Origin: Dehalobacter sp. CP
GTDB lineage: Bacteria > Bacillota_B > Desulfitobacteriia > Desulfitobacteriales > Syntrophobotulaceae
Assembly: GCA_009910795.1 (NCBI GenBank)
Contig: VMEE01000083.1
Span: 1 to 64,000 of the forward strand
Length of the DNA stretch: 64,000 bases
Direction: 5' to 3'
The position numbers and the translations under genes were made by a program. Below, piece by piece: positions 9,342-59,392 of the stretch (position 1 is its first letter; every line of letters begins with the position of its first letter). The notes under the pieces are model-generated. The model made no database searches. It was not told where the DNA came from and saw only the letters and a program-made list of their open reading frames with translations.

Positions 9342-9454
9342 GCCACGGATGGCTTAATGTCGTGATGCCATGGATGGCAAGGAACGACAAGGCCACGGAC
9401 GACGGCACACGATGTGCCTAGTGTCGAATGCGTCAGGATGACAAAGCATTCGAC
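9342..9454. repeat. Folded intergenic repeat element, copy A
   Basis: Between trmL and tagO lie nested hairpins: TGTCG (9358-9362)/CGACA (9385-9389) enclosing the palindrome TGCCATGGATGGCA (9366-9379), then GGCACA-cga-TGTGCC (9404-9418), then GTCGAATGC (9423-9431)/GCATTCGAC (9446-9454). The phrase GGCCACGGA occurs twice (from 9341 and 9391). The stem-ATGGAT-stem pattern recurs in the elements at 38.4 and 43.6-43.9 kb. Confidence 0.55.
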
Positions 9455-9501
9455 GGGCCTAATGTCGCGGTGCCATTTAACTCACGATATCCGGAGGTAG
9501 T

Positions 9502-10692
9502 ATGCTTTCTTATTTATCAACATTTTTGCTGGCAGTTCTATTTGCTTTGATTTTAACACCCGTCTCCATTATCCTGGCCAGAGAATGGGGTGTGATGGAT
9601 TATCCGGGCGAGCGGAGAATACATAAAGCCCCGATTCCGCGTCTCGGCGGCGCTGCGATTTATCTGGCTTTTTGGCTGGCTGTTTTTCTGACGGTAGCCG
9701 TGAATAAAATGCTGATCGGACTTTTCCTCGGCAGCACAATTATTTTTGCGGTCGGCATCTATGATGATGTAAAAGGAATGCGGCCTCTGATCAAACTGCT
9801 CTGGCAGATCCTAGCAGCGGTAATACTGATTTTTTTCGGCATGGCGGTCCCGCATATCACGCTGCCTCTATATGGTGTTGTCCAACTTGGCTTGATTGGC
9901 AACATTTTTGCCGTGCTATGGATTGTCGGTTTGGTCAATGCTGTGAATATATCCGACGGTATGGATGGCCTCGCTTCGGGTATTTGCTTTATTGCGGCGA
10001 TCACATTGTTCTGGTCCGCAACGATCCGTTCAGCCTATCCGGGGGCCGATCTTCTGATGCTGGCCCTGAGCGGCGTAACGCTGGGCTTTTTGTTCTATAA
10101 CTTTAATCCTGCTAAAATCATTATGGGTGATTCCGGGAGCATGTTTCTCGGCTATATGATCGGAGCAGTCTCTATTTGGGGTTTGCTGAAAACCGCTACG
10201 GTACTCGGTTTGGTTTTCCCGTTGCTGGTGCTCGGCATGCCTTTGATGGACATGCTGTTTGCGATCATCCGGAGGAAATGGAAAGGACATTCGATCGTCC
10301 GGGCAGACAGGGGACACCTTCATCACCGTTTGCTTGATACTGGCCTGAACCAGCGCCAGGCAGTGTTTGTTCTATATGGAATCAGCCTTTGTTTCGGGCT
10401 GGCGGCAATTTTCTCCGCCTATGGACACTGGTACATCGCGGCGATTCTGGTGGTCATTGACCTCGGCATTATTTTGCGGATTATGTTCAGAAAGTTTCGT
10501 CTGCATAACTGGTACACGGTGACAAGACCGGTTTCTGCAGACATGGAAGATAAGATGGACGTGGAGAAGGATGACGCGGGAATGCAGCAAAAAACGGAAG
10601 AGCAGAGTCAGGCAGAAACGCAGAATCCAGAAGAGCAGAATCAAGAAGAGCAGAATCAAGAAGCAAAGATCAGAATGAGGAATAAAGTATGA
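9502..10692 (+). CDS. tagO: Undecaprenyl-phosphate GlcNAc-1-phosphate transferase (TagO/WecA type)
   Basis: The 396-residue polytopic membrane protein moves a sugar-1-phosphate (usually GlcNAc or MurNAc-type) onto undecaprenyl phosphate, the first step of teichoic acid or other cell-wall glycopolymer synthesis. About ten membrane segments are visible. The family motifs are present: VGIYDDVKGMRP (Asp pair), NISDGMDGLASG, NPAKIIMGDSGSMFLG and the cytoplasmic RADRGHLHHRLLDTG. The C-terminus carries a Gln/Glu-rich tail (repeats of EEQNQ) absent from most relatives. The start is ATG at 9502 after GGAGGTAGT. The stop overlaps the next gene by four bases. Confidence 0.85.
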   Translation: MLSYLSTFLLAVLFALILTPVSIILAREWGVMDYPGERRIHKAPIPRLGGAAIYLAFWLAVFLTVAVNKMLIGLFLGSTIIFAVGIYDDVKGMRPLIKLLWQILAAVILIFFGMAVPHITLPLYGVVQLGLIGNIFAVLWIVGLVNAVNISDGMDGLASGICFIAAITLFWSATIRSAYPGADLLMLALSGVTLGFLFYNFNPAKIIMGDSGSMFLGYMIGAVSIWGLLKTATVLGLVFPLLVLGMPLMDMLFAIIRRKWKGHSIVRADRGHLHHRLLDTGLNQRQAVFVLYGISLCFGLAAIFSAYGHWYIAAILVVIDLGIILRIMFRKFRLHNWYTVTRPVSADMEDKMDVEKDDAGMQQKTEEQSQAETQNPEEQNQEEQNQEAKIRMRNKV

Positions 10693-11384
10693 ATATTATC
10701 TTTCACGGCCATGCCTGTTTTGAAATCCAGTCTGACGCAGGTCGGCTGATGATAGATCCATATTTGCGGAAGAATCCGAAAGCAGAGGTCAAACCGCCTG
10801 ATTTTAAAACGCTTGATGCAATTTTAGTCACCCATGGTCATGACGATCATTTGGGAGATGCGGTCGAACTGGCCAGGCTGACCGGGGCAGTCCTGATCTC
10901 GAATTTCGAATTATGCCGGTATGCGGAGACCTTTGGGGTGAGGGTTTATTCCATGCATATCGGGGGTAAGCACGTCTTTCCGTTTGGAACTGTAAAGCTG
11001 ACTCAGGCCGTTCATGGTTCCGGGATCGAGCAGGCTGACGGAACCTGTCTGTATGGTGGTTTGGCCTGCGGTTTTCTGCTTCAGCTCGAAGGCAAGCAGC
11101 TTTACCATGCCGGGGATACCGGTTTGTTCGGGGATATGAAGCTTATTGGCAGCCTGACGGAAATCGATCTGGCTATGCTGCCGATCGGGGATAATTTTGT
11201 GATGGGGCCGGAAGATGCGGCCGAAGCAGCTCGGATGCTCCAGGCCAAAGTCGTGGTTCCGATGCATTACAATACATTTGAGGAAGAACAGCAGGATGCC
11301 AAGGCCTTTCTCGCGCTGCTAAGCAGAAAAGCACCGGAGAGCAAGGGAATGATTCTTGAGCCGGGACAGTATATGAAGTTGTAG
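10689..11384 (+). CDS. UPF0173 metal-dependent hydrolase (UlaG-like)
   Basis: The 231-residue protein is a single metallo-beta-lactamase domain of the UPF0173 type: FHGHACFEI, VTHGHDDHLGDAVE (metal ligands), HAGDTGLFGDMKLI and VVPMHYNTFEEE. The substrate is unknown in this family. It is translationally coupled to tagO (ATGA overlap), which suggests co-expression with cell-wall polymer synthesis but no specific link. It is followed by a strong terminator hairpin at 11506. Confidence 0.85.
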   Translation: MNIIFHGHACFEIQSDAGRLMIDPYLRKNPKAEVKPPDFKTLDAILVTHGHDDHLGDAVELARLTGAVLISNFELCRYAETFGVRVYSMHIGGKHVFPFGTVKLTQAVHGSGIEQADGTCLYGGLACGFLLQLEGKQLYHAGDTGLFGDMKLIGSLTEIDLAMLPIGDNFVMGPEDAAEAARMLQAKVVVPMHYNTFEEEQQDAKAFLALLSRKAPESKGMILEPGQYMKL

Positions 11385-11505
11385 AATCTAAAGGGCATTA
11401 ATGCAGCGCAGAATCATATCAAGAAAGCTGGAAGACAAAGCAAATTTATGATATAAAAACCGATATTGATCATAAGATTAGACAGATAGATATGTTTCAA
11501 AGAAA

Positions 11506-11533
11506 ATCCTGTAACCCTTACAGGATATTTTTT
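11506..11533. terminator. Terminator hairpin
   Basis: ATCCTGTAA-ccc-TTACAGGAT (11506-11526), 9 bp with a 3-base loop, is followed by ATTTTTTG and preceded by AAA. Confidence 0.8.
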
Positions 11534-11575
11534 GCTTTTCAGGGCAAAAATAGACTGTAAGGAGATGAAAACAGA

Positions 11576-11710
11576 ATGAGAACCAAAGATTGCGCGAAAG
11601 AATGCATTTATGCTGTGGACGGCGTCTGCCGTCTGGAAAACAACCATGGGCTGAAGACCCCCGAATGCCCCAACCGGGACGGTTCACTGGCCGCAGTCTC
11701 CATACTCTGA
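11576..11710 (+). CDS. Small Cys-containing protein (44 aa)
   Basis: An ATG at 11576 with TAAGGAGATG upstream opens 44 codons, beginning MRTKDCAKECIYAVDGVCRL and ending AAVSIL. Four cysteines (near 6, 10, 18 and 31) suggest a metal site or disulfides. I do not recognise a named family, but the arrangement C-x3-C-x7-C-x12-C and the position before a spore-protein gene (17 bases to its ATG) suggest co-expression in sporulation. It is too short for most gene finders. Confidence 0.6.
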   Translation: MRTKDCAKECIYAVDGVCRLENNHGLKTPECPNRDGSLAAVSIL

Positions 11711-11726
11711 ACAGGAGCGTTAAAGC

Positions 11727-11945
11727 ATGAGAGAAAACATCACCAAGAAAAACACAGGCAATACGAAAAAAAAGGATAACAGGAAGAAGAGACCAGACTT
11801 CATTGAGGAAATGAAAATGGAGATTGCTTCGGAACTTGGCATCATCCAGCAGGTCCAAAACGAGGGCTGGGATTCCCTGTCTCCGAGAATTTCCGGAAAA
11901 ATAGGCGGAAAGTTGTCTCAAAGATTAAAACGGATCAATAAATAA
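11727..11945 (+). CDS. Alpha/beta-type small acid-soluble spore protein, divergent
   Basis: The 72-residue protein has a Lys/Arg-rich N-terminal extension (about 1-25), then EEMKMEIASELGI, which matches the GPR protease cleavage region of alpha/beta SASPs (E-IASE). It continues with W(D)SLSPRISGKIGGKLSQRLKR, corresponding to the DNA-binding half (L-T-R-NG-VGG-MV). SASPs coat and protect spore DNA. The basic extension and degenerate second half make it closer to the SspF/H-like minor forms. The start follows ACAGGAGCG. Confidence 0.7.
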   Translation: MRENITKKNTGNTKKKDNRKKRPDFIEEMKMEIASELGIIQQVQNEGWDSLSPRISGKIGGKLSQRLKRINK

Positions 11946-11975
11946 AAACTACTATATAACAACAATTAGTTCAAA

Positions 11976-12022
11976 GCCTCACCATGTGATATAATTAATG
12001 AAAAAAACAGGTGAGGCGTTTT
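11976..12022 (+). promoter_or_regulatory. Terminator-like inverted repeat enclosing an extended -10 promoter
   Basis: GCCTCACC (11976-11983) and GGTGAGGC (12010-12017) followed by GTTTTTA form a stem that would stop readthrough from the spore gene. Its 26-base loop contains TGATATAAT (11987-11995), an extended -10 element. Its right arm contains the GGTGAGG ribosome site of the next gene. Transcripts that start inside the loop lack the left arm, so their ribosome site is free; readthrough transcripts would have it paired. Confidence 0.5.
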
Positions 12023-12025
12023 TAT

Positions 12026-13333
12026 TTGACAAAGACAAAGCATCAGCAGATTCTTAATTTTATTGAGGATCTCGACATAGGGAGCAAGGTATCAGTCCGG
12101 TTTATTGCCAAAGAGCTTGATGTCAGCGAAGGGACTGCTTACCGCGCAATTAAAGAAGCGGAGAACAAAGGGTTTGTCCGTTCGATCCCGAAGGTTGGGA
12201 CGCTGCGGATTGAAGGCGTCAAAGAAAAACAGATTGAAGATCTTACGCTTCAGGAAGTGGCCCAAATCGTGGAAGGGCTTGTCATCTGCGGAGAGAAAAG
12301 GCTGACGGAATGTCCGAATAAGTTTATTATTGCGGCGATGGAACTGAAAGATTTAGCGCGTTATCTGGAAGAAGGCGCGCTCTGTATCGTCGGCAACAGG
12401 ACAGATGCCCAGCTCCTTGCCTTGAAAAATAATGTTCCTTTGCTTATTTCCGGAGGCCCGGGACCTACGGAAGAGGTCGTGGCGCTGGCCAAGAGCCTGA
12501 ATTCAGTGATTATCATTTCCCCGTATGACACCTTCGTAGTTACGACGATGATCAACCGGGCGCTTTTTGACAGGCTCATCGGCAAGGAACTATTGCTCAT
12601 TGAAGATATCATGGTTAAGGATGCGAAGGTTCTGGAAGACAGTGCGACGATCGGAGACTGGTATAAGCTTTCGCAGAAGACCGGACACAGCCGCTTCCCG
12701 GTCATCGATAACCAGCACAACCTGCTCGGTATTGTGACCGCGGTCGATGTCGCCGGCGAAGGCGTCGAGGTCAAGATCACCAAAGTCATGAACAGGAATC
12801 CGCTGACCGTCGGAAGAGACGATCCGGTTACCCATATCTCTCGCAAAATGGTCTGGGAGGGCTGGGAGATTGCGCCCGTACTTGAAAACGGCAAGCTGAT
12901 CGGAATCATAAGCTTGCAGGATGTACTCGAGGCTTTTCAGCAGATCCAAAAGCAGCCTCAGTTCGGCGAGACCGTGGATAATCTGGTTTTAAGCGGCTTT
13001 GGTTATGTGGAAGAGTCTGAATACCTGACCATTCGGGGCGAAATCACGCAGTTTATGGTGAATGAATTTGGTTCAGCCAGCTGCGGTGTTCTGGTAACCC
13101 TGATGAATACGGCGGGTTACATTGCGCTCCGAAAAAAATACCGCTTGGATGCGATCACAGAAAATTTCAGCTTTTATCAGTTCCATCCGGTTCCGGCCGG
13201 AACAGTCGTCAGCATTTCGGCCAGACTGTTGCTCGTAACAAAAAAGAACTGCAATATTGAGATTGAAGTTTTCAACGATAACGGAGTCCTGGCTAAAGGG
13301 ATGATGACAGCCCGGATGGGGGATAAAAGATAG
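12026..13333 (+). CDS. ytoI: YtoI-like regulator: HTH, DRTGG, twin CBS, hot-dog domains
   Basis: The 435-residue multidomain protein starts with a winged helix (KHQQILNFIEDLDIGSKVSVRFIAKEL...GTAYRAIKEAENKGFV, about 4-60) and a DRTGG domain (about 80-190). A CBS pair follows (VKDAKVLEDSATIGDWYKLSQKTGHSRFPVID and MNRNPLTVGRDDPVTHISRKM). A C-terminal hot-dog thioesterase-like domain (FGSASCGVLVTLMNTAGYIAL) ends it. This is the order of Bacillus YtoI. CBS domains usually bind adenosyl nucleotides, and the hot-dog part an acyl-CoA, so it may read energy or acyl-CoA state; this is inference. I chose the TTG at 12026, 9 bases after GGTGAGG, rather than the GTG inside the ribosome site. dnaE follows after 3 bases. 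Confidence 0.85.
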   Translation: MTKTKHQQILNFIEDLDIGSKVSVRFIAKELDVSEGTAYRAIKEAENKGFVRSIPKVGTLRIEGVKEKQIEDLTLQEVAQIVEGLVICGEKRLTECPNKFIIAAMELKDLARYLEEGALCIVGNRTDAQLLALKNNVPLLISGGPGPTEEVVALAKSLNSVIIISPYDTFVVTTMINRALFDRLIGKELLLIEDIMVKDAKVLEDSATIGDWYKLSQKTGHSRFPVIDNQHNLLGIVTAVDVAGEGVEVKITKVMNRNPLTVGRDDPVTHISRKMVWEGWEIAPVLENGKLIGIISLQDVLEAFQQIQKQPQFGETVDNLVLSGFGYVEESEYLTIRGEITQFMVNEFGSASCGVLVTLMNTAGYIALRKKYRLDAITENFSFYQFHPVPAGTVVSISARLLLVTKKNCNIEIEVFNDNGVLAKGMMTARMGDKR

Positions 13334-13336
13334 GCT

Positions 13337-16300
13337 ATGTTCACACATCTTCATGTTCATACCGAATACAGCCTTCTGGACGGCGCGGCCAGAATCAATG
13401 ACCTTGTGCATTCCGCTGCCGAGCTGGAAATGCCGGCGCTCGCGATCACTGATCACGGCGTGATGTACGGCGTGCTGGATTTTTATAAAGCCTGCGGCAA
13501 ACAGGGAATTAAGCCTATCATCGGCTGTGAGATCTATATGGCTCCGGGAAAAAGAACGGAACGGGTTCTCGGCAAAGATGACAAGAACTATCATCTGGTC
13601 CTTCTTGCCGAAACGAACGAGGGCTATCAGAACCTGGTGAAAATTGTCTCGCAGGCCAACGTGGACGGCTTTTATTACAAACCCAGGGCCGACAAGGAGC
13701 TTTTACAGCAGCACAGTAAAGGTTTAATTGCACTGAGCGCCTGTCTGGGCGGAGAGATCCCGGAGTACCTGATGCAGGACAATCCGGCCAGAGCCAGAGC
13801 GGCGGCGATGGAGTATCTTGATATTTTTGGTCCAGAACACTTTTATCTGGAGCTGCAGGATCATGGCATCACCGATCAGAGAAAAGTTAATGCCGGCCTC
13901 TGGGACCTGCACCGGGAGACGCGGATTCCGCTGCTCGCGACCAACGATGTCCATTATATCCGGAAAGAAGATGCGTCGGTTCAGGATATCCTGCTGTGCA
14001 TCCAGACCGGAAAGACGCTGGCCGACAGCTCCAGGATGAGCTTTGAGGGCAGCGAGTATTATCTGAAAAGCAAGCAGGAGATGAATTTGCTTTTTGGGGA
14101 GACGCCCGAGGTTTTACGCCAGACGAATGAGATTGCGGAGCGCTGCAACGTCAGCTTTTCGTTTGGCCAGCATTATCTGCCGGTGTACGAGGTTCCGGAG
14201 GGCTGCACCTTGGACGAGTACCTGCGGGAATTATGCTGGAAGGCGTTCCCGGTGTTCTACCCCGATGCAACGCCGGAACAGCGGGAGCGGCTGGAATATG
14301 AGCTTGGGATTATTACCCAGACTGGTTTTTCCGGGTATTTTCTGATTGTGTCCGATTTCTGCCGGTATGCCCGGGAGCATGATGTTGCGGTCGGTCCGGG
14401 GCGTGGTTCGGCAGCTGCGAGCATGGTTGCGTACTTGCTCGGCATCACCTCCGTGGAGCCGTTGCGCCATGATCTTCTTTTTGAACGTTTTTTAAATCCG
14501 GAAAGGATTTCGATGCCGGATATTGACATCGACTTTGACCCGGAAGGCCGGGAAAAAGTCATCAAATATGTGACGGAAAAGTATGGGGAAGAGAAAGTCT
14601 GCCAGATTATTACGTTTGGTACCATGGGCGCCAAGGGCGTGCTGAGGGATGTCGGAAGAGTCCTGAATATACCGCTCAGCAAAGTCGATAAAGTTGCCAA
14701 AGCTGTTCCATTCGAACTGGGCATGACGCTGGAAAGGGCGCTGACCGTTTCTCCGGAGCTGCAGAAAATGGTTAGGGAAGAAGAGGAAATCAAAAGGCTC
14801 TATGAGATTTCAAAATCGCTGGAGGGGATGCCGAGGCATGCTTCCACGCATGCTGCCGGCGTCGTGATTGCCAGGGATGAATTGACCAGTTACCTTCCGC
14901 TTCAGAAAACTTCCGACGGGCTGCTGATGACCCAGTTCCCGATGAAATTGGTCGAGGAGATCGGACTGCTGAAAATGGATTTCCTGGGCTTGCGGAACCT
15001 GACGATTCTGACCAAAGCCCAGGCGAATATTGGGAAAACCCGCGGTATCCGGCTTGATCTGAATCATTTGCCGCTGGATGACCAAGCGACCTATCAACTG
15101 CTTTCCGAAGGGAACAGCACAGGCGTATTTCAGCTGGAAAGCGGCGGCATGCGGGCTATCTTAAAAGATTTGAAGCCCAGTTGTTTTGAAGATATTATTG
15201 CTGTGCTCGCTCTGTACCGTCCTGGTCCGATGGAACAGATTCCGGAGTTCGTGCGCCGAAAGCATGGCGGGCAGATCAAGGTCCTGCATCAGAAAATGGA
15301 AGAAATTTTAAGACCGACGTACGGGATTATCGTCTATCAGGAACAGGTCATGCAGATTGCCCAGAATCTTGGCGGATACTCTCTTGGACGAGCAGATCTT
15401 CTGCGCAGGGCCATGGGGAAAAAAGACAAGAAAATCATGGCCGAAGAAAGGCAGAACTTTATCTATGGCCTGCAGGACAGCGGCGGCGAATGGATTGTGC
15501 CGGGAGCGCTCCGTCTGGGTATAGGTGAAAAGGAAGCCGAAGAGATTTTTGATTTGATGGCCAAATTTGCCGAGTACGGATTCAATAAGGGCCACGCTAC
15601 GGCTTATGCGATGATCTCTTACCAGACAGCCTATCTAAAAGCGAATTATCCGCTGGAATACACCGCGGCGCTGTTGAGTTCCGTGATCGGCGCATCAGAT
15701 AAAGTCACTTTTTATATTCAGGAGGCCAGGAGCAGCGGCATTGAGATTCTGCCGCCCGATGTCCAGTACAGTTACCGGGATTTTACCATTGAACACGGAG
15801 CGATACGTTTTGGACTCGAGGCGATCCGCAATGTCGGGACACAGGTGGTTGACAGGATCATCGCCGAAAGAGAGAACGGCCCGTTTACCTCATTTTATGA
15901 TTTTATTGTACGCATGGATGCTAAAGTTCTGAACAAACGAACCCTGGAAAGTCTGATTAAGGCCGGCGCATTTCAGTCACTGTGCAGCCGCGCTCAGGCT
16001 ATGAAAGTCCTGGATCAGGCCCTGGAGCTGGCCCAGAACCGGCAAAAGGACAGCGAATCCGGCCAGATGTCTTTGTTTGATCTCGATCAGGACCTCGATG
16101 GAGGGCTGGTTATGCCTGAAATACCGGAATTCAGCGAGAACGAGATCCTGAAGATGGAGAGGGAGTATATCGGTATATATCTCACAGCCCATCCGCTTTA
16201 TTCCGTGAATGACCTGCTCAGGAAAATCACGAGTTCAGAAATTGCGGCTTGTCTCGAAAGTACGGAAGAAAAAAAGGTCATTCTAGGTGGGATAATAAAT

Positions 16301-35644: not shown

Positions 35645-35796
35645 TCTTTTCCTCCATTTTTTCGGCAGGTAATCCATGAATATGCCTATTTATTCGAATA
35701 AATTCTATAACAATTACTGAGGGAAGTAAACAGTCGGTACAACATTCTTAAATTCATTGCTCAATAATTTCATTCAAGCCTCAATACCCCATATTA

Positions 35797-35820
35797 GGTC
35801 TGGGTGCCACAAGTTCCAGC
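35797..35820 (+). repeat. Fragment of the folded repeat family
   Basis: GGTCTGGGTGCCACAAGTTC and the following CAGC match the left arm of the element at 38410-38432 with two differences. The right arm is missing. It lies in the hom-thrB spacer, ending just before the hom stop region. Confidence 0.5.
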
Positions 35821-37499: not shown

Positions 37500-38366
37500 A
37501 TGATTATCTATTGCGATGGTAAATTTGTTGACAGCCAGGAGGCGAAAATTTCTGTATTTGATCATGGCTTTCTTTATGGAGACGGTGTATTTGAAGGGAT
37601 CCGGGCCTATAATAGCCGGGTATTCAAATTAAAGGAACATATCGACAGACTGTATGAGTCAGCCAATGCGATCCTGTTAAACGTTGAGGTAAGCCGTCGG
37701 GAAATGATGGATATCGTTGTGGAAACTGTAAGAAAAAACAATCTTACAGATGCTTATATCCGCCTGATTATTTCCAGAGGGGTCGGAGATATGGGTTTAG
37801 ACCCAAGGAAATGCCCTAAATCGGAAATTATTTGTATTGCCGGCAATATTTCATTGTATCCGCAGAGCATGTACGAAAATGGGATGGAGATCATTACGGC
37901 TGCCACCCGCCGGAACAGTTCGGATGCGTTAAGCCCGAGAATCAAATCCCTGAACTATTTAAACAATATTATGGCTAAGATTGAAGCCAACAGGGCAGGT
38001 CTGATGGAAGCATTGATGTTGAATCAGGAAGGGTATGTCAGTGAAGCCACCGGCGACAACATTTTCATTATCAAAGACGGAGTTATAACCACACCTCCAG
38101 TTTATGCCGGGATTTTAAAAGGCGTCACCCGTGATTCGGTCATCGATTTAGCCCGCCAGGAAGGGATCCCCGTTCAAGAAGAACTGTTTCATCTGATTGA
38201 TGTTTACAGTGCCGATGAGTGCTTCCTGACCGGTACGGCAGCTGAGCTGATTCCGATTATTATGCTGGATTCCAGAAAGATCGGCGACGGTAAACCAGGA
38301 CCCGTATTTAAAAAGCTGCTGGCTAAATTCCACGAATATGTCAAGACAGAGGGAGAGCCTATCTAG
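37500..38366 (+). CDS. ilvE: Branched-chain amino acid aminotransferase
   Basis: The 288-residue fold-type IV PLP enzyme performs the last step of Val, Leu and Ile synthesis. Start motif MIIYCDGKFVDSQEAKISVFDHGFLYGDGVFEGI; PLP lysine in SLNYLNNIMAKIEA (near 155-160 by family pattern); EATGDNIFII near the cofactor phosphate. The Tyr/Arg pattern in YGDGVFEGIRAY fits the D/L-branched class. It begins the ilv-leu operon. Confidence 0.9.
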   Translation: MIIYCDGKFVDSQEAKISVFDHGFLYGDGVFEGIRAYNSRVFKLKEHIDRLYESANAILLNVEVSRREMMDIVVETVRKNNLTDAYIRLIISRGVGDMGLDPRKCPKSEIICIAGNISLYPQSMYENGMEIITAATRRNSSDALSPRIKSLNYLNNIMAKIEANRAGLMEALMLNQEGYVSEATGDNIFIIKDGVITTPPVYAGILKGVTRDSVIDLARQEGIPVQEELFHLIDVYSADECFLTGTAAELIPIIMLDSRKIGDGKPGPVFKKLLAKFHEYVKTEGEPI

Positions 38367-38408
38367 TAACTGTTCTCTAAATAACTAGAAATTTAAACCT
38401 TCATAGCT

Positions 38409-38520
38409 GGGTCTGTGTGCCACAGTTCCAGCGTAAGCGGAGCATGGATGCGGAGCGCGGCAGAAAGCGCCATGGAGGGCGCTATCTGCCGAGACCGGAA
38501 TGTGGCGCGCAGACCAGACC
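38409..38520. repeat. Folded repeat element, copy B (ilvE-ilvD spacer)
   Basis: The outer arms GGTCTGTGTGCCACAGTTCC (from 38410) and GGAATGTGGCGCGCAGACC (to about 38515) pair with few mismatches. Inside are the core AAGCGGAGCATGGATGCG then GAGCGCGGC, and a hairpin GGCAG-aa-AGCGCC-atggag-GGCGCT-at-CTGCC (38459-38490). No promoter or T-run is seen. See the finding on the repeat family. Confidence 0.65.
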
Positions 38521-38595
38521 CAAATGATTATATTAATAGATTGAAAACAAACAATAGATTAAAGACAAAAAAATTTCAGGAAAGGAAGCGATCCC

Positions 38596-43570: not shown

Positions 43571-43706
43571 ATACCAATATTTGGGGTATGTCTGTGGGCT
43601 ACAATACCGCTTTTCGACCGTTGTGCCATCCGTGGCACAAAAGGCCGCGCTCCGCATCGTGCTCCGCTCACAGCGGAACTGTAGCCCCCAGACTAATCTT
43701 TGGTAT
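43571..43706. repeat. Folded repeat element, copy C (inverted orientation)
   Basis: Outer arms ATACCAA (43571-43577)/TTGGTAT (43700-43706) and TCTGTGGGCTACA (43591-43603)/TGTAGCCCCCAGA (43680-43692). Inner hairpin TTGTGCC-atccgt-GGCACAA (43621-43640). On the minus strand the core reads AGCGGAGCACGATGCGGAGC, the same as in copies B and D. It lies just after ilvC, in the 405-base gap before leuA. Confidence 0.65.
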
Positions 43707-43772
43707 GAATACTTGCATGTTGATTCCAAAGTGTATTTTTCAGAATAATTTAACGAATATCTCCAGAGATCA

Positions 43773-43877
43773 GTCTCCGTAATATATAGGCAGCGACAAG
43801 CGGAGCAAGGATGCGAAGCGCGGCTTTTTGCACCAAGGAAGGTGCAATAGCCGAAAGCGGCTATATATTACGGAGAC
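43773..43877. repeat. Folded repeat element, copy D
   Basis: A perfect 17-bp outer inverted repeat, GTCTCCGTAATATATAG (43773-43789) and CTATATATTACGGAGAC (43861-43877), encloses the core AAGCGGAGCAAGGATGCG and a hairpin TTGCACC-aaggaa-GGTGCAA (43828-43847) inside CGGCT/AGCCG. It lies 86 bases before leuA. The rest of the 43559-43963 gap shows only copy C and the ribosome site of leuA. Confidence 0.7.
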
Positions 43878-43963
43878 CTACCCGGATAATCAAATTAATT
43901 TTATGAACGAATTTAGAAATTAATTTACTGGATATCTTAAAGGAGCGCAGGGGGTGAAGGACA

Positions 43964-46910: not shown

Positions 46911-47391
46911 AGCTTGGAAATTCGGCCATGATATTGACACGGATGTCATCATCCCGGCCCGCTATTTAAACCGCTTCGAACCTGAACATCTCGCCGCCCA
47001 CTGTATGGAAGATGCGGATGCAACGTTCGCTGCCAACGTTAAGCCAGGCGATATGATGATCGGCGGCAAAAACTTTGGCTGCGGATCTTCGCGCGAACAT
47101 GCTCCGCTGGCGATTAAAGCGGCCGGTGTCAAGGCCGTCATCGCAGAATCCTATGCACGGATATTTTACCGGAATGCGCTGAACATCGGGATGCCGATTC
47201 TGGAGTGTCCGGAAGCTGTCAAAGGCATTGAGTCCGGTGACGAGATTGAGGTCGATCTTCAGAACAGCACGATTCAAAACGTCAGCAAGGGAACAAGTTT
47301 TCAGGCCACTCCTTTTCCGCCATTTATGCAGGAATTGATCAAAGCCGGTGGGCTGGTTCCGTACGTAAAGGAGAAAAGAAAGTATGCCTAA
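46903..47391 (+). CDS. leuD: 3-isopropylmalate dehydratase small subunit
   Basis: The 162-residue swivel-domain subunit starts [20 protein letters not shown] and has the flexible loop [15 protein letters not shown] and [14 protein letters not shown]. This short form pairs with archaeal-type LeuC. The start sits behind GGGAGGTTGTTGACA within the end of leuC; the frame is open upstream but the longer reading is only leuC in another frame. Confidence 0.93.
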
Positions 47392-48463: not shown

Positions 48464-48506
48464 AAGACCGCTATGATCGTTGAAATCATTGCGGTCTTTG
48501 ATTTTC
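48464..48506 (+). terminator. Terminator of the ilv-leu operon
   Basis: AAGACCGC (48464-48471) pairs with GCGGTCTT (48491-48498), followed by TGATTTTCTTTT. An inner ATGAT/ATCAT pair extends the stem. Confidence 0.75.
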
Positions 48507-48535
48507 TTTTGTGTCATCCGCGACAAAAGGTCGTG
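48507..48535 (+). repeat. Fragment of the folded repeat family
   Basis: The stretch TTTTGTGTCATCCGCGACAA then AAGGTCGTG parallels 43620-43648 of copy C (TTGTGCCATCCGTGGCACAA then AAGGCCGCG). Only the small hairpin with an ATCCGC loop remains. Confidence 0.45.
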
Positions 48536-52482: not shown

Positions 52483-52512
52483 AACAAAGAGAATAAGGAA
52501 GACTAATTTAAA

Positions 52513-53231: not shown

Positions 53232-53527
53232 GTGCGCCAAGCAAAGCTTGGTACTTCTTGCAAGGTGAGAGTCCTTGCTGGGCAAGGTCTAGCCAACCAC
53301 CCATATCGCGTGTTGTGCCAAAACTGGCAGCAACAGCAAGGTGAAGCGTACACAGAGAACCATATAGGCTACAGGGAGAACCGTAACTCCTGAAGTGTCA
53401 GAAGCAACTTAGATTTGAGTTTTGAGCTGGATTACGGAAGCGAATACTCTTGAAGAGCCCGGTGCGATAATTCCGCACGCCGGGATTCTGTGCGGGGGTG
53501 TCGGGTAACCGGCATCTCTACCGTGAC
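53232..53527 (+). mobile_element. Compact ORF-less group II intron with intact domain V
   Basis: The 5' end GTGCGCC, followed by GCAAGGTGAGAGTCCTTGC (domain I), and a perfect domain V at 53455-53488 (starts GAGCCCGGTGCG, ends CGCCGGGATTC; 34 bases, AGC triad and two-base bulge kept) are visible. A short domain VI (GTCGGGTAACCGGCAT) and a plausible 3' end CTCTACCGTGAC complete it. Only about 223 bases separate the 5' end from domain V and there is no reverse transcriptase, so much of domains I-IV and the ORF are gone. It lies just upstream of the epimerase ribosome site. If it still folds, splicing would need a protein from elsewhere; the deletions make that doubtful. Confidence 0.75.
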
Positions 53528-53551
53528 GATGACATTCCGGAGGTATGAAAT

Positions 53552-54475
53552 ATGAATGTTTTGATTATTGGTGGAACAGGTTTTTTAGGAAGGAACTTAA
53601 CCAAGGAGTTAATGTCTAGTGGTTATAAAGTATCTGTTATAACAAGAAATCGGCAATTCACAGCAGACAAAGTTGAAAATAATGTTGATCTAATAGAGTG
53701 GGATAATATTTCTCCGCTATCTTCAATTTATGATTTTAAGGAATTTGATGTAGTTATTAATTTTGCAGGAGAATCAATCGGTAACCATCGTTGGTCCAAT
53801 TTAGTTAAGCAAGAGATATTGAATAGTAGGATAAATACTACTCGTTCCATTGTTAACGCTATAAACGATGGGACTATGAATCCAAAAGTTCTAATAAACG
53901 CTTCAGCTGTAGGATACTATGGGCCTCGTCAGGATGATAAGATAGCCGAGAGTGAAGGTCCTGGACAGGATTTTCTTGCGGAAGTTTGCAAGAAATGGGA
54001 AGATGAAGCTTACAAGGTCCAAAATGAATTTACACGAGTCGTTACTATTCGTATTGGGGTAGTATTGGGTAGCCAAGGTGCTCTTACAAGAATGGTTATA
54101 CCCTTTAAATATTACATCGGTGGTCCATTAGGTAAAGGAAATCAGTGGCTTCCGTGGATTTACATTCAAGATCTAATTAGGATGTTTAGATTTATAATCG
54201 AACATGATGAGGTTACTGGTCCTGTAAATGGAACAGCACCAGAACCAGTAAGAATGAAAGGCTTTTCAAAGATTTTAGGAGAAGTCTTAAAGAGACCATC
54301 ATGGTTTCCAGTTCCCGAATTTGTATTGAAAATCGCATTAGGCCAAATGTCTGAAATGTTATTACATGGTCAAAGGGCTATTCCCCAAAAAATTAGTGAT
54401 ATTGGTTTCGAGTTTAAATTTCCTGATTTAAGGTCTGCTCTAGAGGATGCTTTGAGGAACCGGAACGTTGTCTAA
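53552..54475 (+). CDS. TIGR01777-family NAD-dependent epimerase/dehydratase
   Basis: The 307-residue extended short-chain dehydrogenase starts MNVLIIGGTGFLGRNLTKEL (nucleotide loop GGTGFLG), with VVINFAGESIGNHRWS, the NASAVGYYG catalytic Tyr region and the C-terminal DUF1731 part (KGFSKILGEVLKRPSWFPVPEFVLKIALGQMSEMLLHGQRAIPQK). Family members resemble YfcH; their substrate is unknown. The gene is clearly more AT-rich than the core genes around, suggesting transfer. The group II intron ends 10-12 bases before its ribosome site (CCGGAGG). Confidence 0.85.
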   Translation: MNVLIIGGTGFLGRNLTKELMSSGYKVSVITRNRQFTADKVENNVDLIEWDNISPLSSIYDFKEFDVVINFAGESIGNHRWSNLVKQEILNSRINTTRSIVNAINDGTMNPKVLINASAVGYYGPRQDDKIAESEGPGQDFLAEVCKKWEDEAYKVQNEFTRVVTIRIGVVLGSQGALTRMVIPFKYYIGGPLGKGNQWLPWIYIQDLIRMFRFIIEHDEVTGPVNGTAPEPVRMKGFSKILGEVLKRPSWFPVPEFVLKIALGQMSEMLLHGQRAIPQKISDIGFEFKFPDLRSALEDALRNRNVV

Positions 54476-54704
54476 CACGGCATTACCTCAACTTTGCCAA
54501 TATGCATGCGGTTGGGACGCTGCGGGAATGCCTGAACGGTATCTACAATCCTAGTATATTTGTTTTTTATCTGGGCTATATGAATGATTTTGTTAATTAC
54601 TGCACAATGAATGCTTGCCCGGCGGAAATGCAAAACGTTAGATGTAATCCCATGCGAGTTGCCTCCGCGACATCGTGTCGCTAAGAAAATCTATGGAGGA
54701 TAAA

Positions 54705-55556
54705 ATGATTTCAATCAATTTCGAGAAGTGTAAACATTGTACTGTTTGTATCAATCGTTTTAAAGGTTATTGCATCAGTAATGAGAACGGTAATCCTAAA
54801 ATTGATTATATGATATGTAACCAATGTCAAAAGTGTATTGCTATTTGTCCTCATCAGGCAATATTGATGAATGGCAAACAACCGATAAAGATTGAGAAAC
54901 CTCTTAGAATTGTTGCAGATGATTTAAAAGAATTTTTAAAACGAAGGAGATCTATAAAAAAATTTAAAGATTGCAAAATACCCAGAGAAGTTTTATTGGA
55001 AATAGCTTCTGTTGCAAAGTATGCTCCTAATCAGAATAAGAATATTGAAATAATTATTATTGATGATCTTGAATTAATTAATAAAATTGACAGATCAGCA
55101 TTGAAATTTGTTTTGCGATTATATAATATATTTTTTTCTATGAAATTCCTGACCAGCTTTATTCAATTGTTTTCAGACTCTTTGCCGACTATAAAAAAGA
55201 AAATGGAATTTGATTTACATATTAATAAACATGTTGTTAAAGAAAATACACAGGGATTGTACTTATTAATTGGGAATCCTAAGGTTCCTGTTACTGAGAG
55301 TAGTGCTCAATATCTATTATCAACGATGATCATATATGCAGAGGCCTTGGGAATCGGTAGTTGCTTAATGGATTCCCTCAAATTATCAATAAATAGAGCC
55401 CTGGCTATAAAAAATGCATTAAGAATTCCAAAAGGCAACAAAGTTCTTGGGGTACTTGCCGTAGGGTATTCAAATGAATGTATAGTTAATATTCCACAAG
55501 GATATGAGATTAATACTAGTTGGAACAGGAAAAATACCGAAACTATTGTAGAATAA
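54705..55556 (+). CDS. Ferredoxin-nitroreductase fusion protein
   Basis: The 283-residue protein has an N-terminal pair of [4Fe-4S] motifs, the first altered (CKHCTVCINRFKGYC), the second canonical (CNQCQKCIAICP). A nitroreductase fold follows, with RRSIKKFKDCKIPREVLLEIASVAKYAPNQ and the FMN-contacting YAEALGIGSCLM. Such fusions reduce nitro, quinone or enone groups using ferredoxin-level electrons. The ATG at 54705 follows ATGGAGGATAAA; a GTG at 54675 has no site. AT-rich like its upstream neighbour. The 54476-54704 spacer holds nothing I can support. Confidence 0.82.
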   Translation: MISINFEKCKHCTVCINRFKGYCISNENGNPKIDYMICNQCQKCIAICPHQAILMNGKQPIKIEKPLRIVADDLKEFLKRRRSIKKFKDCKIPREVLLEIASVAKYAPNQNKNIEIIIIDDLELINKIDRSALKFVLRLYNIFFSMKFLTSFIQLFSDSLPTIKKKMEFDLHINKHVVKENTQGLYLLIGNPKVPVTESSAQYLLSTMIIYAEALGIGSCLMDSLKLSINRALAIKNALRIPKGNKVLGVLAVGYSNECIVNIPQGYEINTSWNRKNTETIVE

Positions 55557-55698
55557 TACATAATATTTTGGTTTTTGCCCGTGCAAATTACCATCATTTA
55601 CGGAAGCTGCCAGCGCAAAACTAATATAGACATATGTGCCTTAATTATCTCAAACTAACCTTCCTCTTTCCTTTCAGAGAAACATAATAAAAATAAAA

Positions 55699-55736
55699 AA
55701 CGAGCTCCTTAATTTTTAATCAGGAACTCGTTTTCA
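55699..55736. terminator. Terminator hairpin
   Basis: AACGAG-c-TCCT (from 55699) pairs with AGGA-a-CTCGTT (to 55732), followed by TTCACT and preceded by AAAA; usable in both directions between the nitroreductase and the minus-strand small ORF. Confidence 0.7.
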
Positions 55737-55790
55737 CTCACTTAAGGTTTGGCTATATGAAATTAGCATCATTTTTCATCACGCCCCTTT

Positions 55791-55895
55791 TTAGGAGATT
55801 TTTTTGAGGACATTCTTTGACTCAGAAGCTTTTAAAGATTCAAGCCCAACTGAAGCGAGAATTTCTTCAATTATATTAATTTCTTTCTTGCTCAA
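55791..55895 (-). CDS. Small peptide gene (34 aa)
   Basis: On the minus strand AGGAGGTGTGCAT precedes a TTG at 55895 that opens 34 codons: MSKKEINIIEEILASVGLES then LKASESKNVLKKIS. The peptide is an amphipathic helix with a central IIEEILASVGLESLK. The strong ribosome site is the main evidence. I do not recognise it; a precursor peptide, small regulator or toxin-like peptide are all possible. The region right of it (55896-56165) shows no supported gene. Confidence 0.5.
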   Translation of the reverse strand: MSKKEINIIEEILASVGLESLKASESKNVLKKIS

Positions 55896-56165
55896 ATGCA
55901 CACCTCCTTTCATAAATCCTAATGATACCATAGAATATAAAATTTGACAAGGTAAATTTATTTACCAGACCTTTATTTGCCAGAGAAGTTAAATGAGCGT
56001 TAAATGAAATTGATCGCAAGGGCCGCGCCGTCCTGGAGCAAAAAAAGTGACCTCCAGCTCCCCAATTTTGGAAGGCGATTTTGATAGGTTTATACTCAAG
56101 CCTTCACCATCTGAAGCCCGTCTACGTATGCTGTAATTAAAGCTACCAAAAAGGCGGGAATCAAA

Positions 56166-56954
56166 ATGAATGAACCAATCACTGAACGTACGCCACTTGT
56201 CATCGCGGCTGAGATTAATAGGATCAAACAACAGACTAGTAAAATCATGCTTACCAATGCCATTGAAGTCGGCAGGCGCCTGAAGGAGGCCAAAGCCCTG
56301 CTTCCGCATGGAGAATGGGGAACATGGCTGGTCGAATCGGTGAGCTATTCCCAGCGCACAGCCAACAGACTAATGCAGCTCTTTGAAGAATATGGAGATA
56401 AACTGTTCGCTTCCGCCGATGACGGGGGGAACTTAAATTCGTCAGCGCTGACGAATTTAACCTACTATCAGGCCCTCCTTCTTCTGGGGATTCCGGAAGA
56501 CGAGCGGGAGAAATTTATCCTGCAGCATGATGTTAAAGATATGACCACCCGGGAGCTGGATCAGGCTCTCAAACAACGGAACCAAACCACTCCGGAGAAA
56601 GAGCAGGCTCAAGTCACGCCCATACCAAATAATCCTCAGGAAATCAAAATAGAATATATAACCGTCAAAAAAACCGACAAACCAAAAAGTGGGCCAACAA
56701 CTGCAGCCCCCTCAACCTTTACCACGAAGTATGAAGAAAAATGCGCCGCTTGCTGCAAAACTATCGCCGATACATTCTACGAACTGCTGACAGCGCTTGG
56801 CCAACTGGCCAGACTTGATCCGGCGGTGAAGGAAAAATGCAGTAAAGACGCGAGCCGGCTTGCAGAAAATATGGTCGAAAGGCTTAAAGAGTGGCCACCT
56901 GTTATCAAGACGAATATGAAGGTTGAGACGTACGCCATCCATGAAAGGTGGTAG
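56166..56954 (+). CDS. DUF3102-family protein
   Basis: The 262-residue protein opens with DUF3102: TPLVIAAEINRIKQQTSKIMLTNAIEVGRRLKEAKALLPHGEWGTWLVESVSYSQRTANRLMQLFEEYGD, followed by the HTH-like ALTNLTYYQALLLLGIPEDEREKFI (about 100-125). A Pro/Thr-rich linker and a C-terminal helical domain with AACCKTIADTFYELLTALGQL follow. DUF3102 proteins are frequent in phages, plasmids and integrative elements and may act in DNA binding or partition. No integrase is nearby, so it is probably residual cargo. Confidence 0.75.
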   Translation: MNEPITERTPLVIAAEINRIKQQTSKIMLTNAIEVGRRLKEAKALLPHGEWGTWLVESVSYSQRTANRLMQLFEEYGDKLFASADDGGNLNSSALTNLTYYQALLLLGIPEDEREKFILQHDVKDMTTRELDQALKQRNQTTPEKEQAQVTPIPNNPQEIKIEYITVKKTDKPKSGPTTAAPSTFTTKYEEKCAACCKTIADTFYELLTALGQLARLDPAVKEKCSKDASRLAENMVERLKEWPPVIKTNMKVETYAIHERW

Positions 56955-57032
56955 AATCGCCAACACCTTTATCCGGGAGTCGGCTTTGGCTTGCTTCATC
57001 ACCGGATAGGCATTACCGGACCGTAACGAAAT

Positions 57033-57072
57033 AACAGCTGGAACACCTTTGATTGTGTTCCGGCTGTTTCCA
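57033..57072. terminator. Terminator hairpin
   Basis: AACAGCTGGAACAC (57033-57046) pairs over 14 bp (one T-G) with GTGTTCCGGCTGTT (57055-57068), followed by TCC. Confidence 0.7.
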
Positions 57073-57167
57073 TATACCAATATTTATGATTATTAGTAGG
57101 AAATGATTCAGATATGTCGAAATAATAAATCGGATAAAGGGAGGTATTTATTATAGCTTATAAAAAA

Positions 57168-57653
57168 GTGAAAAAAGAATTAATTAGCTTATGTATTGGA
57201 GAAATAGTGGCTTCTCTTACATTTATACTTGCACTTATTTCGGTTAAGAATAATACAAACGTGAATATAGATGTGGTTATTATGTACCCTTTCTGTGTAT
57301 TATTATTTATTTTATTTCAAGGAAGTTATTATTGGTTTTATCGCTTGAAAATGATAACAGGCAAAAAGGTAAATAAAAACGGATTCAGAAGAACATATAG
57401 GCTTCTAAAAATTATTGATTTAATTCTTATTCTATTGTATCCAGTGATAATCATTTTGGGATTCGCTTATGACGATGTAGTATTCACAAAATTCTCAACA
57501 TTGATAGGGATATTTATTTATCTTTTTGGTATCGCAGAAATTATAAATTATTTTTATGTAAGATTGTCATATAGTAAAGCCAAAGATATAGTAGCTTTAT
57601 TAAAGTTAAAGAATTTAAAGAAATCAAGCCTTAATAGCGAATTAAATAAGTAA
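57168..57653 (+). CDS. Hypothetical membrane protein (161 aa)
   Basis: The 161-residue protein has four membrane segments (about 10-27, 36-54, 82-102, 108-132) and a basic loop and tail. I do not recognise it. It is very AT-rich. The ribosome site GGGAGG (57139-57144) is too far from the first GTG (57168), and the codons in between read ATT-ATA-GCT-TAT-AAA-AAA in frame. Translation from ATT (57150) or ATA (57153) would fit the spacing, so either a rare start is used or the ATG was lost. Confidence 0.55.
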   Translation: MKKELISLCIGEIVASLTFILALISVKNNTNVNIDVVIMYPFCVLLFILFQGSYYWFYRLKMITGKKVNKNGFRRTYRLLKIIDLILILLYPVIIILGFAYDDVVFTKFSTLIGIFIYLFGIAEIINYFYVRLSYSKAKDIVALLKLKNLKKSSLNSELNK

Positions 57654-57720
57654 AAACGTCCCCGTCTTGTATCTAATTCACTCGTAAGTAAGGATACACT
57701 ATTATTTCTATACAACACTA

Positions 57721-58008
57721 CTGAATATCGGTACTTCAGTTGAACAACAATTAAATGAAGTTGGCATAAGAACAATTAAACAATTGCTTGAAGCTGGTAG
57801 TAAGCAAGCTTGGCTGAGAATAAAAGAAATGGATGACTCTGCATGTATAAATAGGTTATATGCTTTAGAAGGAGCAATACAGGGAATTAGATGGCATGAT
57901 CTTTCAGAAGCTGTGAAAGGTGAGTTAAAGGAGTTTTATAACCTAAGGTTGACAGACAGCCTGTACAAGTGCCAAAATAGACCAGGTAAGAAAAAAGGGA
58001 ATACATAG
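57721..58008 (+). pseudogene. TfoX C-terminal domain fragment without start
   Basis: From 57721 the frame reads LNIGTSVEQQLNEVGIRTIK and continues LEAGSKQAWLRIKEMDDSACINRLYALEGAIQGIRWHDLSEAVK, the helix-hairpin-helix-like TfoX_C domain known from TfoX/Sxy DNA-transformation proteins. The frame is open only back to 57688 and has no ATG, GTG or TTG before 57784, which lies inside the domain, and no ribosome site. The N-terminal half or start is missing, so I call it a remnant. A rare start would be the alternative. A DLP-like reading past 57990 ends in a basic tail. Confidence 0.65.
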
Positions 58009-58034
58009 ATCAAAATGAAAGATAAGGAGACCGT

Positions 58035-58880
58035 ATGGCAACAATTCAATTCATCATTCAATCCATCATTCTGGGCATCGTAGAAGGGATCACGGAGTTC
58101 CTGCCGGTCTCATCGACGGGCCATTTAATTATTTTTCAAAATCTCATCGGGTTTCAGGCGACCAATCCGCATTATGTAGAGATGTATACCTATGTGATCC
58201 AGCTTGGAGCGATTTTGGCGGTCATTGTACTCTATTGGAAGAAGATCAAACAGACGCTGGTGGATTTCTTCCCGTCAAGAGTCGGCTATCAGGAATCCGG
58301 ATTAAAATTCTGGCTGATGATTGTGCTGGCGTGTATTCCAGGTGCTACGATTGGAATTTTATTTGACGATACCGCGGAAAAATACCTGTTTTCCCCGATT
58401 CCTGTGGCGATAACACTTTTCCTCGGCGCAATCTTGATGATCTACGCCGAGAATAGGCTTAGAAAAAATGCACCGGTCGGACGGGACTTGAATGTTTCCC
58501 CAAGACAGGCGGTTCTGATCGGATTATTTCAATGTTTGGCGGTTATTCCGGGGATGTCCCGTTCAGCATCGACGATTATCGGCGGGTGGGTAGCCGGGCT
58601 GCCGACGGTGGCCGCCACGGAATTTTCGTTCTTCCTGGCGATTCCGGTGATGATTGGGATGAGCCTGCTGAAGGTTGTTAAAATTGGCGGTCTGGCTATT
58701 CTCACTTCGCAGGAAATCTTGTCTTTGGCTGTCGGCTTCATTGTATCCTTCCTGGTTGCAGTCATCGTTATCCAGAAATTCATTTCGTATTTACAAAGAA
58801 AACCGATGCGGATTTTTGCGATCTACAGAATGATATTTGCCGCGTTCGTGCTGGCAGCCGGGGTAGCTGGTTTATTCTAA
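58035..58880 (+). CDS. uppP: Undecaprenyl-diphosphatase
   Basis: The 281-residue polytopic enzyme recycles undecaprenyl diphosphate to the monophosphate for cell-wall synthesis and gives bacitracin tolerance. Motif 1 is LGIVEGITEFLPVSSTGHLIIF, motif 2 is LAVIPGMSRSASTIIGGWVAGL. Eight membrane segments are visible. The start is ATG at 58035 behind AAGGAGACCGT. GC returns to the core level here, marking the right edge of the accessory stretch. Confidence 0.93.
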   Translation: MATIQFIIQSIILGIVEGITEFLPVSSTGHLIIFQNLIGFQATNPHYVEMYTYVIQLGAILAVIVLYWKKIKQTLVDFFPSRVGYQESGLKFWLMIVLACIPGATIGILFDDTAEKYLFSPIPVAITLFLGAILMIYAENRLRKNAPVGRDLNVSPRQAVLIGLFQCLAVIPGMSRSASTIIGGWVAGLPTVAATEFSFFLAIPVMIGMSLLKVVKIGGLAILTSQEILSLAVGFIVSFLVAVIVIQKFISYLQRKPMRIFAIYRMIFAAFVLAAGVAGLF

Positions 58881-58974
58881 ATCAGCTCGTTTTATCCGAA
58901 TACCAGTCCTGAAGTTTATCAGACTTTCAAACATTCAGCCAGCCTTTTGGGACATTCGTCATCGAATATTCAGG

Positions 58975-59003
58975 TTGTTTCCGGATATTTTTTGTGCTAG
59001 AAT
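58975..59003 (+). promoter_or_regulatory. Promoter of the T-box-proCBA unit
   Basis: TTGTTT (58975-58980), 17 bases, TAGAAT (58998-59003) with the extended TGC just before. Transcription would start near 59010, right before stem I of the T-box. Confidence 0.65.
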
Positions 59004-59019
59004 AAATTACAATTGGAAA

Positions 59020-59265
59020 ATTAAAACTGATGATCAACCCAGTATGTTAACGGGTCATACAGAGAGGGGAACGATGTACACGTTTGTACAAAGCTGGAAG
59101 TTCTCTTGATAGTTAACAGAAACCCAGTTGTGAAGTGAGAATGAATAATCCTACGGCTGTCTCACCGTTATCTGAGCTTGAAGCGGCGTATTCGCAATTA
59201 AGGTGGTACCGCGGAAGATATACTTCTTTCGTCCTTAGATGGACAGAGAAGTATTTATTTTTTCT
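59020..59265 (+). promoter_or_regulatory. T-box riboswitch, apparent proline specifier
   Basis: The T-box core AAGGTGGTACCGCGG is at 59200-59214. Stem I is closed by CAAC (near 59033)/GTTG and GTTAAC (59045)/GTTAAC (59112), with AGTA on the left side of the specifier loop and GAA-A-CCC-A on the right (59119-59126). The codon CCC (59123-59125), followed by A, reads proline, which fits proC-proB-proA downstream. The terminator is ATACTTCT (59220-59227)/AGAAGTAT (59247-59254) plus a T-run. Uncharged tRNA-Pro would favour the antiterminator. Confidence 0.88.
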
Positions 59266-59339
59266 GCAGCAAGTTTTTTCGCTGAACAATTAATATTTAC
59301 TCGTAGACGGATTCGTAGATTCCGCTAACACCACAAATT

Positions 59340-59392
59340 TAGTCATCGTAATGGATGGCTAGCGTCAAGAGGAGCATGGATGCGAGCGATTA
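59340..59392 (+). repeat. Folded repeat family, partial copy E
   Basis: GCGTCAAGAGGAGCATGGAT followed by GCGAGCG corresponds to the core of copy D (GCGACAAGCGGAGCAAGGAT, GCGAAGCG). The outer arms are missing. It lies between the T-box terminator and proC, so it is part of the read-through leader. Confidence 0.5.

Follow-up and report, generated by a model that had tools for sequence, protein, structure and literature searches.

We conclude that a family of folded intergenic repeats in Dehalobacter sp. CP very probably consists of miniature inverted-repeat transposable elements (MITEs) whose interior is selected to fold on one strand, and we favor, with a confidence a little above even, a role for the folded strand as an RNA ligand of CsrA. 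The repeats were noticed in the first 64,000 nucleotides of contig VMEE01000083.1 (assembly GCA_009910795.1; this whole stretch is called the window). The original prediction, made from the letters of the window, described three main copies (here B, C, and D) and several related pieces, all of which are present with the letters quoted, and offered two readings, a folded RNA or a self-folding mobile repeat. Both halves stand in that the repeats are mobile (MITE ends and one empty site) and one strand is folded; that this strand acts as RNA is our proposal. For comparison, we used genomes of the window's genus (G001–G005; IlvC identity of G002–G005 90 to 99%), of which G001 is nearest (65% of sampled 31-mers in common with the window), and genomes from further away.

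The elements reach past the hairpins to terminal inverted repeats. Complete copies are about 200 to 320 bp long, have inverted ends CTAGTACAACGTTCT.../...AGAACGTTGTACTAG, and sit at CTAG; similarity between copies runs to the left of the hairpin as far as CTAGTACAACGTTCTCTAAAT and to the right as far as ...TTTAGAGAACGTTGTACTAG. Type-2 copies (D, L018, L065, L128, and the remnant at 59 kb) have the related ends TACATCGATTCC.../...GAATCGATCTACTAG. We searched 1.34 of the 4.5 Mb of G004 for these ends, with first-order Markov sequences as the control. End motifs with at most two mismatches occurred 16 times against 0.1 expected, and inward end pairs 150 to 400 bp apart occurred 6 times against 0.05 in the control; the six pairs span 199 to 324 bp, and five of them enclose the core. 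In G004, 12 of 32 cores have a left end upstream of them, compared to 9 of 4000 random places. The target-site duplication that the original prediction had suggested looking for is present at locus L006 of G001, where the element lies between two CTAGs; in G002, the corresponding flanks enclose just one CTAG and the element is absent. At this one site, the duplicated target is CTAG or TA. In the G003 orthologue (L182), the terminal repeats are kept and the whole hairpin is deleted, and G004 and G005 differ at this place. The family thus shows the features of MITEs, namely inverted terminal repeats, a length below about 500 bp, and no transposase gene, with target duplication and an empty site at one site. 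No full-length element or transposase gene with the same ends was found in the 1.34 Mb of G004 or in the other loci examined, and a DDE transposase beside L141 was rejected as the autonomous partner because it has no matching ends. Targeting of CTAG or TA recalls IS630-like or IS5/IS701-like enzymes, and the transposase may belong to such a class.

The middle of the element forms, on one strand, a three-way junction of a variable outer stem (P1) and two hairpins (P2 and P3). P2 reads GC GNA GCA NGGA TGC GNA GC, and a GAAAA-like junction precedes the 3' strand of P1. Nine copies folded singly gave mostly P1, P2, and P3, the minimum-energy fold pairing the P2 region otherwise in B, L003, L014, and L065. 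We then measured covariation in an alignment of 45 copies (A2: 44 of 61 candidates plus copy C, without the copies that were cut, those whose P3 is inverted or branched, and a number of near-duplicates). L048 was excluded as a chance match. Pairing in P2 and P3 holds in 96.7% of cells, compared to 85.3% in shuffled alignments and at most 47.0% in slid controls, and 79 cells show double changes against 25.8 shuffled, a count that none of 500 shuffles reached. RNAalifold found the same helices in this alignment but for a few pairs. P2 on its own contributes little (two changed pairs, three sequences). The outer arm covaries as well: among 21 Gracilibacter copies (20 from LH_M27 and 1 from BRH_c7a), changes on both sides are seen in 20 pairs, compared to 6.8 after shuffling, and 14 of these belong to P1, which has 20 pairs. 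The compensating stem changes first seen in three copies are therefore strongly borne out.

The loops vary less than the stems. All 45 P3 loops consist of A(N)GGA and one further base, for a length of five or six nucleotides (19 are AGGAG); the loop is thus fixed neither in its letters nor at the six bases originally described. The P2 apex is GGA in 43 of 45 copies (C and L024 have CGA), and the P2 internal loop is GNA/GNA in 44 of 45. Counts of loops at large agree in part: A.GGA. is the top loop class among GCC-N6-GGC 12-mers in 457 kb (27 of 166 per strand), and A.GGA. hexaloops with stems of at least six pairs are tied for the top class in G001 (9) and not in G004 (3); perfect-stem hexaloop scans of the window and of 393 kb were weak, ATGGAT closing by an A-T pair. 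We rejected a reading of the core as a mini-hairpin (GCGNAGC) because the changes GT..AC (L008 and L014) and ACA..TGT (L053) fit P2. Compensated change is also seen between orthologues at the ilvC-leuA site, where both C and D are retained in the window, G001, G002, G003, and G005, and their outer arms and P3 differ in a compensated way. Copy C is identical in the window and G001 and has compensated differences in G002, G003, and G005, while the P3 of copy D differs between the window and the other four. Elsewhere, G004 has a remnant at this site and G016 a D-like copy with a larger P3; there is no copy at the site in G006 and G014.

A double-stranded palindrome is expected to contain G.T and A.C mismatches equally often. 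On the GGA strand, the outer arms contain 63 G.T and 13 A.C mismatches (63 of 66 copies at an arm score of at least 9), and under looser criteria, with 99 copies, 94 and 32. Counting each group, position, and type once leaves 49 distinct G.T to 20 distinct A.C (p 6e-4). The G.T excess thus indicates that a single strand, the one with GGA, has been selected to fold, which points to either RNA or a strand-specific single-stranded DNA intermediate as the selected molecule.

We next consider the number and spread of copies. With a covariance model (R1: 43 sequences and 17 pairs, based on alignment A3), a search of related genomes, of the kind suggested in the original prediction, gave 62 copies in G001, 73 in G003, 87 in G004, 45 in G016, 52 in G019, 26 in G063, and 8 in G014. 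Across an even draw of 398 genomes of the phylum, each at least 90% complete, R1 matched seven. There were at least 13 matches in each of G001, G002, G003, and G005, but a single weak one in each of G318, G209, and G184 (at most 13 candidates per genome were scored, with filters stricter than in the per-genome counts). The variant is therefore restricted to certain lineages. Among named records, 38 of 39 loci with the exact core belong to metagenome-assembled genomes of Gracilibacter sp. (LH_M27 and BRH_c7a), Ca. Dichloromethanomonas elyunquensis, a Peptococcaceae, and an Oscillospiraceae; the 39th, from a Burkholderiales, looks like chance. Counts of GCCANGGANGGC over 61 relatives were rejected as a census because the matches in G028 and G033 cluster on one strand and are probably coding, and because several family-2 genomes exceed the control, yet R1 finds no copies in those drawn. 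No copy was found in the 200 kb sampled of G030 (51 matches of GCCANGGANGGC to 1 in the control), nor in G043. One-strand clusters of GCCATGGACGGC lie at G033:C1:853749-907572 and G028:C1:413556-449235 and are probably coding repeats. Neighboring copies within 600 bp are divergent, left ends facing, in 13 of 14 cases among the listed matches of G001, G003, G004, and G016 (115 of 267) and in 2 of 2 among the 34 listed of G019, with G014 and G063 left out; copies C and D of the window and G003:C1:725459-725752 are examples. If one element were nested in another by insertion into the CTAG at its left end, this would account for abutting cases such as L018 and not for the orientation bias.

The original prediction did not recognize the family, and at curated Rfam thresholds there is indeed no match at the repeat positions in the window. 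The repeats nevertheless resemble TwoAYGGAY (RF01731). At a relaxed threshold, D, C, and B match this model with 24.2, 22.4, and 20.9 bits over its full length and on the right strand, all below the gathering score of 43 bits, and when searched alone (a few hundred bases) with E 0.07 to 0.48, beside chance matches to eukaryotic families. The Oscillospiraceae copy L038 scores 34.3 bits and the Peptococcaceae type-2 copy L065 41.5, and the sole match over threshold in G001, on the 4.5-kb contig C106, scores 45.4 and looks classical. Judging from the shared architecture and this graded series of scores, we regard the repeats as a TwoAYGGAY-like variant and not a member of the family. In both, a three-way junction bears two hairpins whose apical loops are of the A(N)GGA type, and a stem contains G.A pairs. 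Clostridial genomes likewise have TwoAYGGAY in several copies (up to 6 scored per genome). The repeats differ in that many loops are not strictly AYGGAY, P3 often has a five-nucleotide loop, P2 is short with GNA/GNA loops, and the whole sits inside a MITE; the tandem G.A pairs, which the repeats have in P2, may lie in another stem in RF01731. A 2010 listing gives TwoAYGGAY as a probable RNA without a cis-regulatory role (PMC2864571). In 2014, a match between it and the CsrA-binding motif was reported, with a remark on tandem G.A in one stem and with validation still pending (PMC4333381). The available parts of the TwoAYGGAY literature examined contain no description of it as mobile, and in the open-licence PMC literature, CsrA with miniature inverted-repeat yields only the Rfam 12 paper and Dehalobacter with miniature inverted-repeat yields nothing. 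By eye, some of the classical TwoAYGGAY loci of other Clostridia (among L142–L153) show what look like additional inverted repeats beyond the Rfam model, and these loci may be mobile too.

We found csrA in all five genus genomes, one each in G001–G005; in G001, it encodes an 86-aa protein and adjoins fliW. Among the 398 drawn genomes, RF01731 was present in 50 (E at most 1e-3, at most 6 copies scored per genome; 34 over the cut-off) and csrA in 292 (287 over the cut-off). csrA occurs in 48 of the 50 RF01731-positive genomes, compared to 244 of the 348 negative ones (odds ratio 10.2, Fisher p 1.4e-5), or 239 of 348 when only matches over the Pfam cut-off are counted (p 6e-6). Counted by genus, the figures are about 38 of 40 and 160 of 230 (p 2e-4), on the assumption that no other csrA-positive drawn genome falls in the genera of G228 and G422.

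From these results, we propose the following model. The repeats are very probably non-autonomous transposons that insert at CTAG, and the interior of their GGA strand folds into a TwoAYGGAY-type three-way junction. Where this strand is transcribed, by read-through or otherwise, the folded RNA would most likely offer a CsrA dimer a pair of GGA loops some 30 nt from each other. Dispersed as they are, the 62 to 87 copies in each of three genus genomes could jointly serve as a CsrA decoy, and at some places a repeat might be a CsrA-dependent part of the transcript, with a possible effect on expression.

Several observations weigh against this model. At up to four mismatches, the end motif is only about twice as frequent as chance (61 against 31.6), and left ends number 25 against 23 in one shuffle; only closer matches count. 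The P2 of copy C carries CGA, not GGA. In eleven Gracilibacter/BRH copies, a portion of P3 is inverted and the sense strand there reads CCATCC; a 12th such copy is cut by the end of its locus. When 14 sources were searched together, RF01731 at E up to 0.5 was matched in L184, L065, and L038 and unmatched in the other 11, Dehalobacter-type and LH_M27 copies included. Mismatches in the P3 stem are near symmetric (8 G.T to 5 A.C). Of 44 tandem contexts, 24 have the GGA strand in the same direction as the flanking genes and 20 have it in the opposite one (from the best 54 of 57 R1 matches, orthologues among them; 4 further copies lie inside an open reading frame (ORF) of at least 90 aa). Because orientation is neutral and copy C opposes its operon, read-through would give sense RNA from only about half of the copies. 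The co-occurrence with csrA is corrected for phylogeny only by the genus-level count and could track motility, and neither csrA nor fliW was detected in G019, which has 52 copies, or in the RF01731-positive G228 and G422. On the last point, the two genes are adjacent in G001, and one assembly gap could hide both in these genomes (completeness 84% for G019, 94% for G228, and 92% for G422, compared to 99% for G001); loss of csrA is also possible. G228 and G422 are from a single family, and csrA is present in four or more of its other drawn genomes, among them the RF01731-positive G179. In G063, csrA is present, with no match to fliW.

The foremost alternative is that the hairpin matters only as DNA: the palindrome would be kept by transposition and quasi-palindrome template switching, and the loop by the youth of the copies or by a DNA-binding transposition factor. 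We hold this to be possible but doubtful. An element of this kind would have the same ends and leave the same empty site, would show no strand bias towards genes, could carry inverted inner modules, and could lose its hairpin while keeping its ends, as in G003; the P3 of copy D, wholly different between the window and G001, is what a template switch or conversion would give. Symmetric double-strand processes do not, however, predict the one-strand G.T bias of the outer arms, although a strand-specific single-stranded DNA step could produce it. Nor does this account lead us to expect a P3 loop in which A(N)GGA persists despite variation in length and at the N positions, a similar junction with unrelated outer sequences in other families, or the company that RF01731 keeps with csrA.

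Two further explanations are disfavored. The first, that the repeats are cis-acting leaders or attenuators of amino-acid operons, we consider very improbable. B, C, and D do lie in the ilv-leu cluster and the 59-kb piece before proC, and 44 of 50 intergenic copies lie between co-directional genes (orthologues included), compared to a background of 63% of intergenic regions by number and 60% by length. Genes flanking 20 other copies, one from each, are nonetheless of mixed kinds (19 of 20 have a Pfam match), so amino-acid operons are not favored, contrary to the original suggestion, and the orientation of the copies is unbiased. The second, REP or REPIN elements moved by a Y1 (RAYT) transposase, would explain many intergenic palindromes with a conserved one-strand motif but is scarcely credible, since Y1_Tnp (PF01797) has no match in the 99% complete G001, the one genus genome searched, and the repeats have terminal inverted repeats and CTAG on both sides instead.

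Within the window (Table 1), the core AGCGGAGCANGGATGCG with up to three mismatches occurs four times, whereas 100 shuffles gave 0.57 on average and never as many as 4. The matches are exact in B and D, have one mismatch at 59,368, and have three at 47,092, the last within an ORF and probably chance. The core said to be shared by the three main copies is therefore exact in two of them; that of copy C is one base short (GCACGATGCG). In G001, GGAGCANGGATGCG with at most one mismatch was counted 15 times and the reversed pattern once. The gene order is ilvE, B, ilvD, ilvB, ilvN, ilvC, C/D, leuA. Copy B is inserted into the CTAG that holds the ilvE stop codon, whose TAG sits within the CTAG at its left end; its right terminal repeat is not recognizable. 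C and D form a divergent pair, and the outer arms of D pair perfectly over 17 bp, as described. The left end of D probably lies near 43,710, and its right end is uncertain. The shorter pieces fared unequally. The piece at 35,797-35,820, adjoined by a homoserine dehydrogenase gene, is the left arm of a partial copy starting near 35,737, and that at 59,340-59,392 lies inside a decayed copy that has lost the inner hairpin and is followed by proC. The segment at 9342-9454 is a separate module resembling the branched, larger P3 of L004, L010, L015, and L018, and that at 48,507-48,535 shows a weak resemblance only.

Table 1. Repeat copies and related pieces in the window, and loci with an inverted P3
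Feature	Position or loci	Strand	Description
GGA-loop hairpin module, stand-alone	9342..9454	+	GCC-ACGGAT-GGC, GCC-ATGGAT-GGC, GTC-AGGAT-GAC; by eye
Partial copy	35737..35820	+	Left end, spacer, and 5' outer arm only; by eye against L010
Copy B, type 1	38363..38521	+	CTAG and left terminal repeat from 38363, spacer, folded domain 38409-38521
P2/P3 domain of copy B	38431..38497	+	P2 loop ATGGAT, P3 loop ATGGAG; R1 match over 38431-38497, 71.5 bits
Copy C, type 1	43571..43706	-	Between ilvC and leuA; R1 match 43609-43673, 72.5 bits
Copy D, type 2	43710..43890	+	Folded domain 43773-43877; R1 match 43794-43859, 83.9 bits
Possible P3-like hairpin fragment	48505..48535	-	Weak resemblance, by eye only
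Decayed type-2 copy before proC	59302..59416	+	Remnants of both ends, 5' outer arm, AGAGGAGCATGGATGCGAGC remnant of P2
Inverted-P3 copies (CTCCTTGCCATCCATGGC...GTCCATCCGTGGAC)	L037, L039, L044, L045, L050, L051, L054, L064, L067, L069, L075 (L056 cut)		LH_M27, BRH_c7a

Apart from the repeats, the window has two matches over the Rfam threshold, to group II intron D1-D4-6 at 53,268-53,382 and to a BsrG-like RNA at 336-560. In 393 kb of G001 (L016–L035), AACAT/ATGTT pentaloop hairpins with stems of at least six pairs occur 47 times and are perhaps another repeat family.

The repeats share traits with several known systems. CsrB, CsrC, and RsmX/Y/Z are CsrA-sequestering RNAs with several A(N)GGA hairpins each, encoded by a few small RNA genes per genome; the repeats likewise have several such hairpins, as predicted CsrA sites, on one predicted RNA, but each element has two main sites and a genome holds tens of elements. 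Like the bacterial MITEs, which include Correia elements, RUP, ERIC, and MITEAba12, they are short, non-coding, multi-copy, and mostly intergenic, with terminal inverted repeats and the target on both sides, but they enclose a conserved junction that is similar to a known structured RNA and has loops like protein sites. The pneumococcal BOX elements, modular intergenic repeats with RNA-like folds, are similar in these respects when compared by description.

TwoAYGGAY has been an RNA of unknown function, and to it can now be compared a repeat family that reaches 87 copies per genome and includes orthologous pairs as well as an empty site. That TwoAYGGAY binds CsrA is a hypothesis already published; what is new is the joining of a MITE to a TwoAYGGAY-type RNA and the co-occurrence test. 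The presence of csrA in 48 of 50 carriers, together with the strand asymmetry, gives that proposal independent support. We tentatively suggest, short of even confidence, that a MITE captured a TwoAYGGAY-type CsrA-binding RNA and spread it to tens of sites, so that a transposon would set a dispersed CsrA-sponge capacity and place CsrA sites in many transcripts, and that TwoAYGGAY RNAs generally may be mobile repeats rather than ordinary small RNA genes. If this is true, transposon load would be linked to a global regulator outside the Gammaproteobacteria.

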